Positions 45,731 through 54,271 of a DNA stretch of 64,000 nt are shown one piece after another. How positions within the stretch are numbered: the stretch's first letter is position 1; every line of letters begins with the position of its first letter. Source of the stretch: Hyaloraphidium curvatum (Eukaryota; Monoblepharomycota; Hyaloraphidiomycetes; Hyaloraphidiales; Hyaloraphidiaceae). The stretch spans positions 434,001-498,000 of the forward strand of contig JAIVFI010000034.1 in the NCBI GenBank assembly GCA_025558095.1, given 5' to 3'. The notes below the pieces were generated by a model. That model was not told where the DNA came from, did not search any database, and worked only from the letters and a program-made list of their open reading frames with translations. Both the position numbers and the translations under genes were made by a program.

Positions 45731-47476
<1,746 letters not shown>

Positions 47477-47768
47477 ATGGATTGTATTTGACTTGGAGCT
47501 GTATGTACGCATTGGGACCAAACGCACGGAACCAGTCTGGTCTGGTCTAGTTTATCCGCCGGCGTCGTACTACATGAGTAACTCGATGCCACTAGGTTTT
47601 CAGAGGCAAACTGATCTACTCGCCCTACTACAACAACCTAATCGGACCGACGGTTGCCCCGTTGAATAGTGGTGTTTTCAAAACAACCGGGACTCTTTGC
47701 AAAAGAAGTTCTATATATCACTACCTATGTAAAGCGAATACCCTTCACGTCTCTATCTCCACCATAAG

Positions 47769-48323
47769 CTAAACAACAACTACCAAATTGCCGAGCTGGA
47801 AGCGCACGTCGATCGTCAGCGTCGTCAGCCCGGTGGTCATGGGGAAGGCGGTTCCGGAATTCTGGCCGATGAAGTCGATGATCAAAGGCTTGATCCTCAG
47901 GTACCGAAAGTGCATCAGAATGGGTATTGCGTCGATGTTTTGAACCGTCCTGGTCGAGCTATGAAGTCAGTAGTAGAGGTCTCGATCGATGATTGCTTAC
48001 GCACTGCCATAGGGCGGGTCCGTTGAAGACGTTCTGGCAGAAGACCTTGATGACCGCCTGTGCAGGCGGAAACCCGGGCGTGCCTTGATGTCCAGGTATG
48101 AGCAGTATGGCAAGGATGTGGGGCGCCAGTCCGTTCATGATGGCATTGCCAAGCGCCCGGAACTCCCTGTTGACCATGTTGGATGTATCACCGTTGGCGA
48201 TCTGGAAGTAGCGTATCCCGATTGCATTCCATGGTTCATCCCCATGTTGATCACATTCATTTTCTTAACTGCCGGACCAACGGGCTGCGCCATCAGGATG
48301 TTTCCGTGGAGCACCCTATTCAT
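47769..48323 (-). CDS. unrecognised three-exon gene next to the Fanzor locus
   Basis: Exons 48255-48323, 48005-48201 and 47769-47958 join to 151 aa (456 nt, whole codons). It starts MNRVLHGNILMAQPVGPAVK, continues with SNMVNREFRALGNAIMNGLA and VIKVFCQNVFNG, and ends FPMTTGLTTLTIDVRFQLGN before the stop. The donors GTGATC and GTGCGT and acceptors CAG and TAG are in the local style (introns 53 and 46 nt). I recognise no domain. The alternating hydrophobic C-terminal strands suggest a beta-rich protein. It lies in an AT-richer stretch, and could be a cargo gene or a remnant. Further 5' exons are possible. Confidence 0.45.
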
Positions 48324-48983
48324 TGCGTGCAACGAACCAGGGAGGCATTGGCAGCCACCAAAAAGGGTTGTATGCTGGATTGGAGACCGCCAGAGAAGGG
48401 ATGAGGGCCCACTGCAAGGGGCCGAAGACGCCAAAGTATTGAAGAAAGTTGTGCACAGTCCCGTGAACGGTGGGATCGTAGACCAGGGCGCCCCAACGCA
48501 CCCGAATGAAGTGGTCTATGGAAAGAAAATCCCGAGGACCGGCCAATGCCAGGGGAAAAGCCATGTGCCGGCCTCAAGAAACCGGGGGTGCAGAGGATTG
48601 ACGGGATTCGCGCGGGGATCCGTGCTCGAGCCGGGTGAGCCGCGAACCCCAGTCGCGACAACCTCATTCACACAATTCCTGCAGTTCGTTGGTGAGCTCG
48701 ACTCCGGATTGCCTCCGACGTAGTTGCTGACCTTCTTTCTTTCAGACGTCGGTAGTTTCGCGCCCCGCTTCGCTCTCCGCCGGCATGGCATTCGGGTGCG
48801 GAGTCCGAATCCGCCTCGCCGGTCGCATGGTCATCCACTGCACCAGCCGGTTCTAGGTGGGCCGCAAGTACACGGCCATTGCCTCCGACCTCGACCCCTG
48901 CCCAAGTCACCGCATCGAGGTCCGTTCCCTCGACCGTCGACGTGTATCAATCGAGCTCTAACATTGTTTGCAACAGCAGTGAC
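48324..48983. other. upstream region between the unknown gene and Fanzor
   Basis: About 660 bases. Short hydrophobic frames on the minus strand (for example 48316-48564) do not connect to the neighbouring exons by usable splice sites. It may hold divergent promoters or decayed sequence. No terminal inverted repeat was recognised. Confidence 0.4.
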
Positions 48984-51900
48984 ATGGGGTCGAAACGAGG
49001 GCGAACATCGGACAAGGGGTCGGACAGCGACGATCCCGGCGAAGGGTCTTCGGCACACCCACCTGCTCCCCGGAAGCGCGCCAACCAAGCCGGCGAGTCC
49101 GAGGTCGTCGATGCTGCAGCTCAGCTTCCCGTGGCCGTGGCCGTGCCGCCCAACTCCGAGTCCGACGACACGGAGCTCGCATCGTCGCTGGTGGCCGCCG
49201 TGTCGCAGAATGACACCGAGTCGGACGACTCCCGGCCCAAGGAGGCGATTCCCCAGAAGCGGCCCCGCAAGGACGGCGACAAGGGCAAGGAGCAGGCCGA
49301 ACCCGTCCCGTCGTCTCCGAAAGGCCCCGAGCCCAAGAAGGCGAAGAAGAAGGGCTACGATGCCGCCGCCGCCGCTGCCCAGGCGGCCCTGGCGCCCGAA
49401 CATTCTGCCCACCTCGAGCAAGCCAACGTGCCCACCGGTTGCCCCGCCCTGCTTTGCGGAAACACTGATCATTGGGATGCCGGTCACGGCGACGGGAGCG
49501 GCTGCCAGTTGTTTCCCTGCGGGAGCCTCTACCACAACACCAAGGAACATCTGAAGCGGCCCGATCCCCGCATGCCTTTCATGTGCCCGCACTGCGACCC
49601 GCTCAACACGCTCGACCACGACGAAGGTTTTCACTCGGTCTGCGGCACGTGTGGCGAGCGTGACCATGGCGACATCGCCCACGCGCACCCTTGCGACGCC
49701 CTCGTGTGTACCGGGAGGATCTGGGCGTCGCGTTCAAAGGAGGAACTGTGGGAGATGGTCGCAAATGGCTTCCTGTCCGAGAACGTGCTGTACTCGTGGT
49801 TCCCCCTGATCTCGTACGAGGACCACGTGCTCGAGCACAAGCATACCTTCGTTTCCGTGGAGGAGCCCAACGGTTGCCGGCCTTTCCTCGTTCACTGCGG
49901 CTCGCTGGGCCACACTCGCGCGGCGCACGACGGGGTAGAGCCTCTGTACTGTTCGCAGTGCGGATCGTTTGAGCACCGGGCCAAGGAGCACGTGCACTAC
50001 ATGTCTGCGTGCCACACGAGCGCCAACGGCTGCGGACAAAGGGGTCACTCGAAGGTTACCGCCGGGGCCTGCGTGCTCAACATCAACGATCTGAAGAAGC
50101 TCACGCCCAAGGAGGCGCTGGACGAGCTCATGGGCCCGCAGTCTGCCCAGAGGACCGTTGTCATGGCGTTCCAAAAGTTCCTGAGGTACGGGGACCGGAC
50201 GGCGCGGGAACCCGCGAGCCCAGAGGAGGAACTAGCTGCCACGCTCTACGAGGTCATCGAGGATGCCATCGGGCGGTTCACGAAGCTCTCGTTCGAGATG
50301 TCTCTGTTCATGGACCTCTTCTTCAAGTACGTGCGCGACTTGCGGCTACTGGGAGGGAACCTTCGGTACCCTCACCTGGACATGAGCCTCGGCCTGAACG
50401 CCTTCTTCGCCGTGGCGGCGCCACTCGACGGCGACGAAGACCACGCCGATACTCTGGTGCCGCTTCTGAACACGTTCCGCGACACGGAATGGCTGGGCTG
50501 CGTCAAACGAGCTGCTCGTCACGGCTACAAGCGGACGTCACGCGTTGGCCTCGACCAGATCATGCGGACCGCGTCACAAGGCTACGTGACGGCTGCCATG
50601 AACTCGGCGAAGGAAAACCTGCACGATCGGGTGCGCGCGTGGACGATCTGCAGGCTGCGCATCCCGCTGCAACCACGGCCATCGCGACCCACTTTGTCAA
50701 CAGCCTGAAGTTCTGGGATCCGAGGGAGCACCCCGCCAACACGAACCGGCCCTTCACGCTGCCAAACAACGAGCTCTACGACAAGGTCATGACCGACCCG
50801 CTGCTCCTGGAGATCTGCCGCGACGTCTACACCGAGCTGCGCGACGACCTGCTCAAGGGTCTCTACCTCAACCCGTACTGGGTCGCGTACCACTGGCAGA
50901 GGTTCTTCGACGTCCTGTTCCGCATCCAGCGGGAGCACGAGGCGCTGCGCAAGAAGCTGGTGCAGTGGACGGAGAACTTGAGCAAGAGCGAGAGGAAGTT
51001 CGCTCTCCGCAACTTTCCCTACAACCACAAGCTCGTGAAGCCCTTCAACGTCCTCCCGCGCTTCTCGACCGAAGCCAAGCACATCCTCATCGACCGCATC
51101 GCTCTTCACCAGCTCATCCAGGTGGCGCAGCGGCGGCTCGGCCAGGAGCCCACCTCGCTGGCCGACTACCTCGCCGCGGAAGCCGAGGATCCGGAGCACT
51201 GGTGGCGCATGTTCTTCCGGCCGGAGAAGGTCAACACCGGCGGCGCCGAGAATCCATCGAGGCACTTCGACTACTCCTTCTCCACCGATGCCGTGAAGGC
51301 CTCGATCACGGTTCGCGTGCGGAAGCCGGCAGAGGAGCAGCCCGGCACGTCGTTCTCCGACATCAAGATCCCCGGCATGTCCGTTGCCGGGCTCGACCCC
51401 GGCAGCACAGCCATCCTCACGATTTCGACGGGGCTCTCGACGCCGGGGGACGACAAGCACCACGGCCACAGCAAAGCCGTCAGCGTCTCCGCGGGCGAGT
51501 ACTACCACCTCGCCCGGTACAAGAACAACACGTGGAAAGCAAACCAGCGCAAGAAGCGGCACCCGTCCATCCTTGAGATCGAGCGCGACACGCCCGTGGC
51601 CAAGGCCTCCACGGTCGCTCACACCAAGCTGTACATCCACCACTGTCTCAAGCACCTCTCCACGATCGTCGGCTTCTACGGGACAAAGGTCCACCGGCGG
51701 TCTCGGTTCGACCGGTACATCGGCAAGCACACCGCGCAGGAAGCCGTTGCCGAGAAGGTCATCAAGGGCTGCGGCGTCGAAGCGGAGCGCCTTATACTTG
51801 CGTTCGGCAAGGCCAGGTTCCGTCACAACATGCGCGGCGGCGTCACGACTCCAGGGTCGGCACTGGCGTGGCTGAAGCGCATCCTGCGCCGCCGCGGCGT

Positions 51901-52239
51901 CACGGTCACCGAGGACGTGGAGGAAGACATGACGTCGCAGATCTGCGCGGCGTGCTGGGAAAAGGTCGGCAAACAACACCCGAAGAACGGGCACTACCAG
52001 ATCAAGGATTGCAGAAATCCGGATTGTTTGATCAAGTGCTGGAATCGGTTCGTTGCCTTAGGTTCTCGTCACGCAGCTCCTGACACTTCGGCCGCAGGGA
52101 CGTCATGGCTGCCACCAACATCCGCACCATTGCCTTGTCGGAGATCCTCCACGGAGGCAGGCCTCCCGTGTTCTTCTCGACGCGGAGGGCCAACTTCGAG
52201 GGACGCGATCCGGCGAGCGCGGGTGTCATCGTCAACTAG
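48984..52239 (+). CDS. Fanzor nuclease (eukaryotic TnpB/IS200-605 relative) with N-terminal zinc-knuckle array
   Basis: Exons 48984-50638, 50704-52047 and 52098-52239 encode 1,046 aa. Fanzors are RNA-guided DNA endonucleases related to TnpB and Cas12. RuvC-I is VAGLDPGSTAILTIS (D783). The alternative Fanzor-type glutamate is in VEEDMTSQICAACWEK (E958/E959). The zinc ribbon runs CAAC (966-969) to DCRNPDCLIKC. RuvC-III NRDVMAATNIRTIAL (D1001) appears only when the 50-nt intron 52048-52097 is removed. Residues 1-150 are disordered with basic NLS-like patches (KRPRKDGDKGK, KKAKKK). Residues 153-363 hold five exact C-x(2,6)-CGx3Hx4H repeats. The first intron's exact borders (50639-50703) are one of three frame-compatible choices. 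All catalytic residues look intact. Confidence 0.9.
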
Positions 52240-52685
52240 GGTCTTTCGGCCCTCCAACGACTCCTGCGTGTGTGACGATCCCGCTCAACGGTCAACTCTT
52301 GCGATCTTGAGTTCGCTCTCGAAAGCAAGGGTCGTGGCCGATCCGATCCCGACTGAGCTATGCAATGATGTTTTGATCGGGCGGGGCATCTATCCGCGGG
52401 CTCGGTCCGGGCGATCAGTGATACGGAGAAGACCCCGGCGGGTGGGAGCAGGAACCAAAACAATGGAGGTAGGGTTCATTGCTCCGGAGTCGGCGTAACC
52501 AATCGCCGTAGTACGAGCAGGATGCCGGGAGGTATTGTGGTTGGCTTAGTTTTTGGTTTCTTAGAGGCTCCCGTTCATTCTGTAAACGGTACTAGAAACT
52601 TTTTCGATCACGCTACTTAAGCGCCGTGACACCGACACCGACCGTAAACAACTTAACAAAGAACCTTCATCTCTTTCTCGCAGCC
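52240..52685. other. 3' flank of Fanzor, candidate guide-RNA region
   Basis: About 450 bases between the Fanzor stop and Pwp1. In TnpB and Fanzor elements the guide (omega/fRNA) is usually transcribed from the 3' end and flank of the nuclease gene. Here a CCGATC (about 52336-52341) can pair with GATCGG (about 52376-52381). That is weak evidence alone. The last 150 bases are AT-richer and must also contain the Pwp1 promoter. No terminal inverted repeat is recognised. Confidence 0.3.
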
Positions 52686-54271
52686 ATGATCAGCGCGCTG
52701 GCGTTCCTGCCGCGCGGGGCGGCTGCCGAGAAGCCGTCCGTGTATCGGCCGAGCGCCGAAGACCTCGAGAAGCTGCGCGAGCTCGCCGGCGAGGAGGTCG
52801 AGGCCGCCCGCAGCGACCTCGAGCGGGCGATGGGCGAGCCCGGCGACGGCATGGAGGACGACTCGGACGCCGAGTCCGGCAGCGACAGCGGGGACAACAA
52901 AAAAAAGATCTCCCGCAAGGCAGTGCCGCCGGGCAAGGCGAACCCGGAGGACCTCAGCGAGTACCACCTGGAAGATTACGACGACGGCGAGGGCCCCGCG
53001 GACCCCGCCTCCCGGCTTTTCTCCAACGTTTCTGCCCTTGCGGTTCCTGGGCCGGACCCGTACCTGGACACTGAGGCTGCGGACAGCGACGACGACGAGC
53101 TGGTGGTCCTGGCTTCTGACGGCGTAATCATCGCCGCCCGCACCGAGGACGAAGTGAGCACCGTCGAAGTGCTGGTTTACGAGAGGGAAGAGGGCAATGC
53201 TTATGTGAGGAACGACTGGATGGTGACGGGAATGCCGCTGTGCCTCGAATGGATGGACTTTGGTCCCGGTGCCGAAAAGGGTGGGTGTTACTTGGTAGCG
53301 CCGTGGAATCTCCACCAACATTACCTTCTTATTCATTCATAGGTTCCTACATTGCCGTCGGGTCTTTCGAGTCGACCATTGACGTGTGGTCTCTGGACGT
53401 GGTCGACGCCATGCTCCCCACCTTCGTGATCGGCACCGCGCTCCCGAAGAAGACCGGCAAGAAGAAGTCCAAGCTCGTCCAAAAATCCGACGTCCAGCAC
53501 ACGGGCGCCGTCGTTTCTCTAGCGTGGAACCGGAACGCTCGGCATCTGCTCGCTTCCGGGTCCGCCGACACGACCGTGAAGCTCTGGGACCTCAATTCGC
53601 CGTCTGCCGCGGTGGCGAGCTACGCGCACCACACTGCGCCCGTTCAGGCGCTGCAGTGGCATCCTACGGACGCACCGCTGCTCGTCTCTGCCTCGCACGA
53701 CAAGACCGCGCGCGTGATCGACTCCCGTGCCCCCGCTTCCGGCCTTTCCTTCGACCTCCCCGCCGATGCCGAGGCTGCGCGCTGGCTTCCTTCAGGCGAC
53801 CGCTTCTTAGTTGCCTGCGAGGACGGTGCGGTGTTGTGCTTCGACCCGCGTTCGTCGCAGCGCGTGTGGACTCTGCAGGCCCACGAGGGTGCCTGCTCCG
53901 GCCTCGACGCCTCGCCCACATTCCCTGGGCTTGTCGTGACGGGCGGCGCAGACCGGACTTGCAAGGTCTGGGACATGCGGGAGAAGCCCCGCATGCTGGC
54001 CAGCAGGGAGTTCCAGGCCGGCCGCATCTTCTCGGCACAGCTGGCGCCGGATGCCGCCTGCGTCGCGGTCGGTGGGACTGGCGGCAAGGTGGTCCTGTGG
54101 GATCTTGGCGAAGTCGACTCCGTTCGGCGCGCCTGGGAAGGGGTCGAGGGAGAAGGCGAGAACAGGCGGGAGGTTGTGGTTGTGGAGGAAGGCGGCAGCG
54201 GGGACGAGGCGGACAGCGACGACGAGGAAGGAGAGAACGCGGGTAGTGATGGGGAGATGGAGGAAGATTGA
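52686..54271 (+). CDS. PWP1: Pwp1 (periodic tryptophan protein 1), ribosome-biogenesis WD40
   Basis: Exons 52686-53280 and 53343-54271 (62-nt intron) encode 507 aa. Pwp1 is a nucleolar WD40 protein needed for 60S assembly. The start MISALAFLPRGAA is the conserved Pwp1 N-terminus (LxWxPRGxA type). After an acidic linker come LSEYHLEDYDD, IAVGSFESTIDVWSLDVVD, ASGSADTTVKLWDL, VSASHDKTARVIDSR, TGGADRTCKVWDM and GGKVVLWDL. The C-terminal 50 residues are very acidic, as usual. Splicing gives GSYIAVGSFES, a conserved blade start. Confidence 0.95.

Follow-up and report, generated by a model that had tools for sequence, protein, structure and literature searches.

The Fanzor gene in the window, i.e. 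the whole 64,000-nucleotide stretch analysed here (C34:434001-498000 of the Hyaloraphidium curvatum genome), is a pseudogene: it belongs to a frameshifted transposon copy in which the partner gene, orfA, is broken too. Taken as a whole, the data are very probably explained by a decayed copy of a multicopy fungal transposon, which targets TA, lacks a transposase, carries a Fanzor1 gene (about 1,080-1,088 aa when intact, with a CCHH array) plus orfA, would be retained through omega RNA guidance and would be mobilised in trans. This explanation draws direct support from the Fanzor1 homology, the catalytic residues, the borders, the copy number, the purifying selection and the deletion found in this copy.

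When the genome (31.9 Mb in 55 contigs) was searched with the C-terminal half of the protein, five other near-full-length copies, one degraded copy, one paralogue at ~42-43% (L029) and weaker relatives were found. The five other copies are 91-99% identical over most aligned pieces, and their alignment defined the following features.

47667..52594, plus strand: Fanzor transposon including the flanking TA; the similarity of the six copies starts and stops here, the flanks differ and the ends are unique to the copies
47769..48564, minus strand: orfA, ~249 aa in the other copies, with one inferred intron of ~55 nt; small deletions break the window copy; the five other copies keep exon 1 open, with dN far below dS
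48874..48875, no strand: point at which 72-74 nt of non-coding DNA of the other copies are absent from the window copy, from the copy alignment

The element proper spans 47669-52592 (4,924 bp), with borders (TA)GTGGTGTTTTC...ACGGTAC(TA), and is flanked by an FMO-like gene, whose end is at 47476, and by a WD-repeat gene resembling Periodic tryptophan protein 1, with its ATG near 52687. Six copies with common borders, TA on both sides and differing flanks bear out carriage by a eukaryotic transposon. Because the terminal repeats are short and imperfect (8 of 12 bases similar, as judged by eye), the transposase class is proposed from the TA duplication and from analogy. In the copies read, none of the frames of the 4.9-kb element encodes a DDE transposase. 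Genome searches found the left and right ends each in the six copies only, hence no ghost copies, i.e. elements sharing the ends but devoid of Fanzor, were detected by these end searches; a genome-wide search with a 7-base end pattern gave too many matches to be informative.

The state of the copies varies. Once the second of the two introns considered below is removed, the Fanzor frame is uninterrupted in L025 (1,088 aa) and in L026 (1,080 aa). Frameshifts occur at differing places in L024, L028 and the window copy, and in L027 there is a stop within a duplicated stretch, while a C is replaced by Y at the zinc ribbon. The normal right end is lost in L026 and the normal left end in L027. These last two copies show only 12 differences in ~3,200 coding positions, yet their flanks are unlike, which points to recent movement. 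The first ~120 residues (48993-49350 in the window) differ strongly between an L026/L027 subfamily and the rest; both subfamilies keep a basic stretch ending in KKKGYD, perhaps a nuclear localisation signal.

The structure of the Fanzor gene, with the ATG at 48984 and the stop codon at 52237-52239 (both recomputed from the window), is as follows.

48984..52047, plus strand: Fanzor1 exon 1, frameshifted in the window copy; the same exon is uninterrupted in L025 and L026
50671..50672, plus strand: point of a 61-nt coding deletion which shifts the frame; the 61 nt are in frame in the five other copies
50706..50708, plus strand: premature TGA reached after the frameshift, from the sequence and its translation
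52048..52097, plus strand: predicted 50-nt GT-AG intron, at the equal position in all six copies; its removal keeps the frame
52098..52239, plus strand: Fanzor1 exon 2, with the RuvC-III Asp codon (52099-52101) and the stop codon, from translation and motifs

A Fanzor gene in a fungal-type genome, apparently intact and coding for 1,046 aa after removal of two introns, had been proposed by the sequence-only reading. The first half of this proposal holds, since the family is Fanzor1 by sequence and the genome has three Chitin_synth_1N loci; the intactness and the length do not. The frame opened by the ATG ends at the TGA, the RuvC part is in a different frame up to 52047, and NRDVMAATNI is borne by a third segment. 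The TGA is reached because 61 nt between 50671 and 50672 have been lost, in the window copy alone. This segment, present in 5/5 other near-full-length copies, extends the exon 1 frame without a stop (...HKHGRFGPQQPNQGRTLTKGE...) and is partly kept in the ~42-43% paralogue; being coding and in frame, it was deleted rather than spliced. Even with the real introns spliced out, the coding sequence of the window copy is therefore interrupted by the deletion and the TGA. The predicted intron at 52048-52097 stands: it has the same site in six copies, and two of these give an uninterrupted protein once it is removed. To judge from the sequences, the role of active RNA-guided nuclease that had been thought possible for the window copy may pass to its sisters L025 and L026, on other contigs, where the Fanzor frame is uninterrupted.

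Purifying selection was visible in both genes. The Fanzor dN/dS between copies was 0.23-0.48. For orfA, which is transcribed divergently from Fanzor, dS was mostly 0.02-0.06 and dN only 0-0.01, a difference that indicates purifying selection. There was no Pfam match for orfA, no relative in the PDB, and no copy outside the element; the gene may have a role in transposition.

The RuvC-I DPG Asp, the relocated Glu in VEEDMTSQIC, the CxxC...C...C zinc ribbon and the RuvC-III Asp in NRD were all found where they had been placed beforehand. Two of these residues lie in exon 1.

51395..51397, plus strand: catalytic Asp of RuvC-I (DPG), from motif comparison
51923..51925, plus strand: relocated Glu of RuvC-II (VEEDMTSQIC), from motif comparison and the PDB profile

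A family profile of the core, made from two sequences (L025 and L029), retrieved from the PDB GtFz1 of Guillardia theta (1.5e-5) and SpuFz1 of Spizellomyces punctatus (5.8e-4), and nothing else at E <= 1. The relatives found by this profile check were thus Fanzor1 proteins alone, as expected for the family, and the profile alignment paired the relocated Glu, the cysteines and the WNR(D/N) motif. The zinc domain matched Pfam PF07282 at 1.6e-5, slightly below the cut-off. DPG in RuvC-I and an alternative Glu separated from the zinc finger by six residues are fingerprints of the Fanzor lineage (PMC10711439), and both are present in L025, L026 and L029. The Fanzor1 pattern, D-X(125,275)-[TS][TS]-XX-C4 zinc finger-X(5,50)-RD motif (PMC3627910), was found in the same three and, piecewise, in the window. 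On these sequence grounds the assignment of the family to Fanzor1 is settled. The presence of three Chitin_synth_1N loci supports the fungal assignment of the genome; a search for the flagellar marker IFT46 gave no match, but its controls were silent as well. Comparing housekeeping proteins of the window with the PDB did not narrow down the host any further. No NCBIfam match was obtained, nor any relative in viral contigs by profile. AlphaFold2 models made without an alignment were unusable (mean pLDDT 38.0 for the C-terminal part of the window protein and 32.4 for the CCHH array).

Could the window copy nevertheless be functional? It retains every catalytic residue, and the proposed length of 1,046 aa would require a 65-nt intron (50639-50703) and a 50-nt one (52048-52097). 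The first of these does restore the frame on paper, but so do several other GT/GC-AG pairs: a splice-site scan found numerous pairs able to bridge the first frame change, so that any one of them is little evidence. Moreover, the five other copies use the stretch corresponding to 50639-50703 as coding sequence, and L029 keeps part of it; a protein without it would be ~42 residues shorter than those of the intact copies, and some of the missing residues are conserved in L029. In addition, orfA is likewise broken. This intron was therefore rejected, and a functional two-intron gene is very unlikely. An error of assembly, behind which the window copy would really be intact, is also improbable, if a little less so. 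The Fanzor frame is otherwise open; however, the upstream 72-74 nt are missing from the window copy as well and its orfA is broken, which fits ordinary decay, and different lesions are found in most other copies.

Two further explanations concern the nature of the gene rather than its state. Purifying selection on Fanzor and orfA is what a domesticated host gene would show, but near-identical copies with common borders, TA on both sides, differing flanks and scattered lesions make domestication most improbable. A bacterial gene of TnpB or Cas12 type, acquired by contamination or recent transfer, might be suggested by the RuvC and zinc-ribbon core common to TnpB and by the PF07282 matches. We give this hardly any credence: DPG and the relocated Glu are marks of the Fanzor lineage (PMC10711439), the gene contains an intron of spliceosomal type, the contigs are long, the genome carries fungal chitin synthases, and the best solved relatives are Fanzor1 proteins. 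The decayed copy of a fungal Fanzor1 transposon is thus the reading retained below.

The DNA downstream of the stop codon and the left border are of interest with regard to a guide RNA and its target.

52240..52592, plus strand: conserved 3' non-coding region and right end, candidate omega RNA, from fewer variable columns than fourfold sites and from the folding z

In the first 181 nt past the stop, 3/180 columns vary versus 31/427 fourfold sites (p = 0.006), and in the entire 3' region 11/333 (p = 0.024); because the copies are related, both p values are indicative only, and paralogy may inflate these conservation statistics. Compared with shuffled sequences, the last 159 nt give a better fold (z -2.6), with a right-end z of -2.0 to -3.2 in 5/6 copies and of -1.2 in L027. 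A consensus fold of five copies contains a hairpin at 52509-52594; it ends at the transposon border and includes a pairing of UAGUAC with the terminal GUACUA. By analogy with SpuFz1 (PMC10432273), the right end is a candidate for an omega RNA whose guide would start in the flank; alternatively, the fold could stem from inverted repeats in the DNA on which transposition depends. No remarkable folding was seen at the 3' ends of L029 or family 2 (see below), and Rfam gave no match over the whole element. At the left border, an A precedes the TA in 6/6 copies, giving ATA. With an A frequency of ~0.18 in the surrounding G+C-rich DNA, this is unlikely by chance. A preference of the transposase is an alternative cause of it.

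The N-terminal part of the protein contains the following array.

49440..50080, plus strand: about eight CCHH modules resembling zinc knuckles; five strict modules versus 0.0085 expected, with Cys/His nearly all invariant in L029

The modules (C-x2/4/6-C-x4-H-x4-H) are repeated over residues ~150-365. L025 has five strict ones, whereas 2,000 shuffles gave 0.0085 on average and never more than 2; L029 has four. The array of the L025 family is 39% identical to that of L029, yet almost every Cys and His is unchanged; ~8 modules can be recognised by eye. Within the genome the CCHH region was found in Fanzor frames only, and the array had no significant match in the PDB by profile. Such an N-terminal extension is unusual, because most Fanzor1 proteins are only 600-700 aa long (PMC11423790). 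From its resemblance to zinc knuckles, we infer that it may bind nucleic acids.

Further Fanzor-like loci were detected in the genome by a PF07282 search. The paralogue L029 (1045-6365; contig C14) encodes an uninterrupted 996-aa Fanzor with the same CCHH array, and its 59-nt intron is placed elsewhere than that of the window family. Upstream of it lies an IS630-type frame in which HTH and DDE_3 domains were recognised (4.9e-7), and the element is bounded by TA-flanked repeats of ~28 bp, TAGTRTTAACGGCTCGGAGAKTGGCACTA. Family 2 comprises 10 copies which are ~99.8% identical (99.5-99.95% over ~2.2 kb; 99.6-99.7% over >6 kb for the three copies compared). Their right ends are followed by TA in most cases, and a DDE_3 transposase frame (5.6e-15) is present upstream in the copy on contig C3. 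The loci (L057-L066 and L070-L073) are on contigs C3, C5, C6, C7, C11, C15, C28 and C35; their RuvC and zinc motifs read NEYLTSQMC...MRDVNS, and RuvC-I has DPN, not DPG. Five loci (C36:107112, C25:329110, C16:409424, C5:552218 and C4:409859), 79% like part of the family 2 3' end and of equal internal spacing, are probably a third, related family. Two more Fanzor-like genes on contig C2, L033:2737-4809 and L031:2889-6500, are above or near the PF07282 cut-off and <=32% identical to the window family. On C2, five Fanzor loci belonging to different families lie in ~240 kb (355-592 kb), perhaps a transposon-rich region. It is conceivable, although we would not count on it, that all this reflects an undescribed Fanzor1 lineage whose array of ~8 CCHH knuckles serves as an extra module for binding nucleic acids, in cooperation with the co-conserved orfA product, and that the fungus harbours several Fanzor transposon families which are still mobile, one of them very young and next to its own transposase.

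How such elements might persist can be pictured from SpuFz1 and TnpB, from which the omega RNA and the TAM are extrapolated. In intact copies, the Fanzor protein would bind an omega RNA transcribed from the element's right end, and the complex would read the flank sequence as a guide. It would then cut DNA in which an ATA-type TAM is followed by the flank sequence, i.e. an empty or vacated site, and repair from an occupied copy would retain the element, favouring persistence of the transposon. A further capacity to bind RNA or DNA would come from the CCHH array. The element probably obtains its transposase in trans; by analogy, mobilisation would be by an enzyme of the IS630/Tc1-mariner type like those beside the other Fanzors of the genome.

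The window copy, as a pseudogene, is by itself of little importance. On the other hand, intact and broken copies, a CCHH domain not present in solved Fanzors and a young 10-copy family beside a DDE transposase make up a natural system where omega RNA expression, guide-target matches and transposition are measurable together, and which bears on the benefit of Fanzor to its transposon. The closest known counterpart is SPu-1 of Spizellomyces punctatus, a ~2.1-kb element with a single ORF for a 633-aa protein and 33-bp TIRs (PMC3627910, PMC10432273). As in the window family, the Fanzor1 belongs to a fungal DNA transposon that is present in multiple copies and duplicates TA at its target; the CATA TAM of SpuFz1 (PMC10432273) resembles the ATA at the left borders, and its right end, which specifies the omega RNA (PMC10432273), has its parallel in the conserved and structured right end proposed here as candidate. 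Unlike SPu-1, the window family has 4.9-kb elements, proteins of 1,080-1,088 aa, a CCHH array, an intron, a second gene and weak TIRs, with no ghost copies found. GtFz1, the best PDB match, shares the relocated Glu and the zinc ribbon, but its third catalytic residue is Asn instead of Asp, its TAM is TTAA and no CCHH array is reported for it (PMC10432273, PMC11423790). The Mariner elements PGv-1, PUl-1 and PUl-4 also target TA and carry Fanzor1, with or without a transposase, together with accessory genes; these are endonucleases or methyltransferases (PMC3627910), whereas orfA has no detectable relative. Fanzor1 transposons were already known from fungi; the present ones are distinguished by their zinc-knuckle array and partner gene, and by how many young families occur in one genome.
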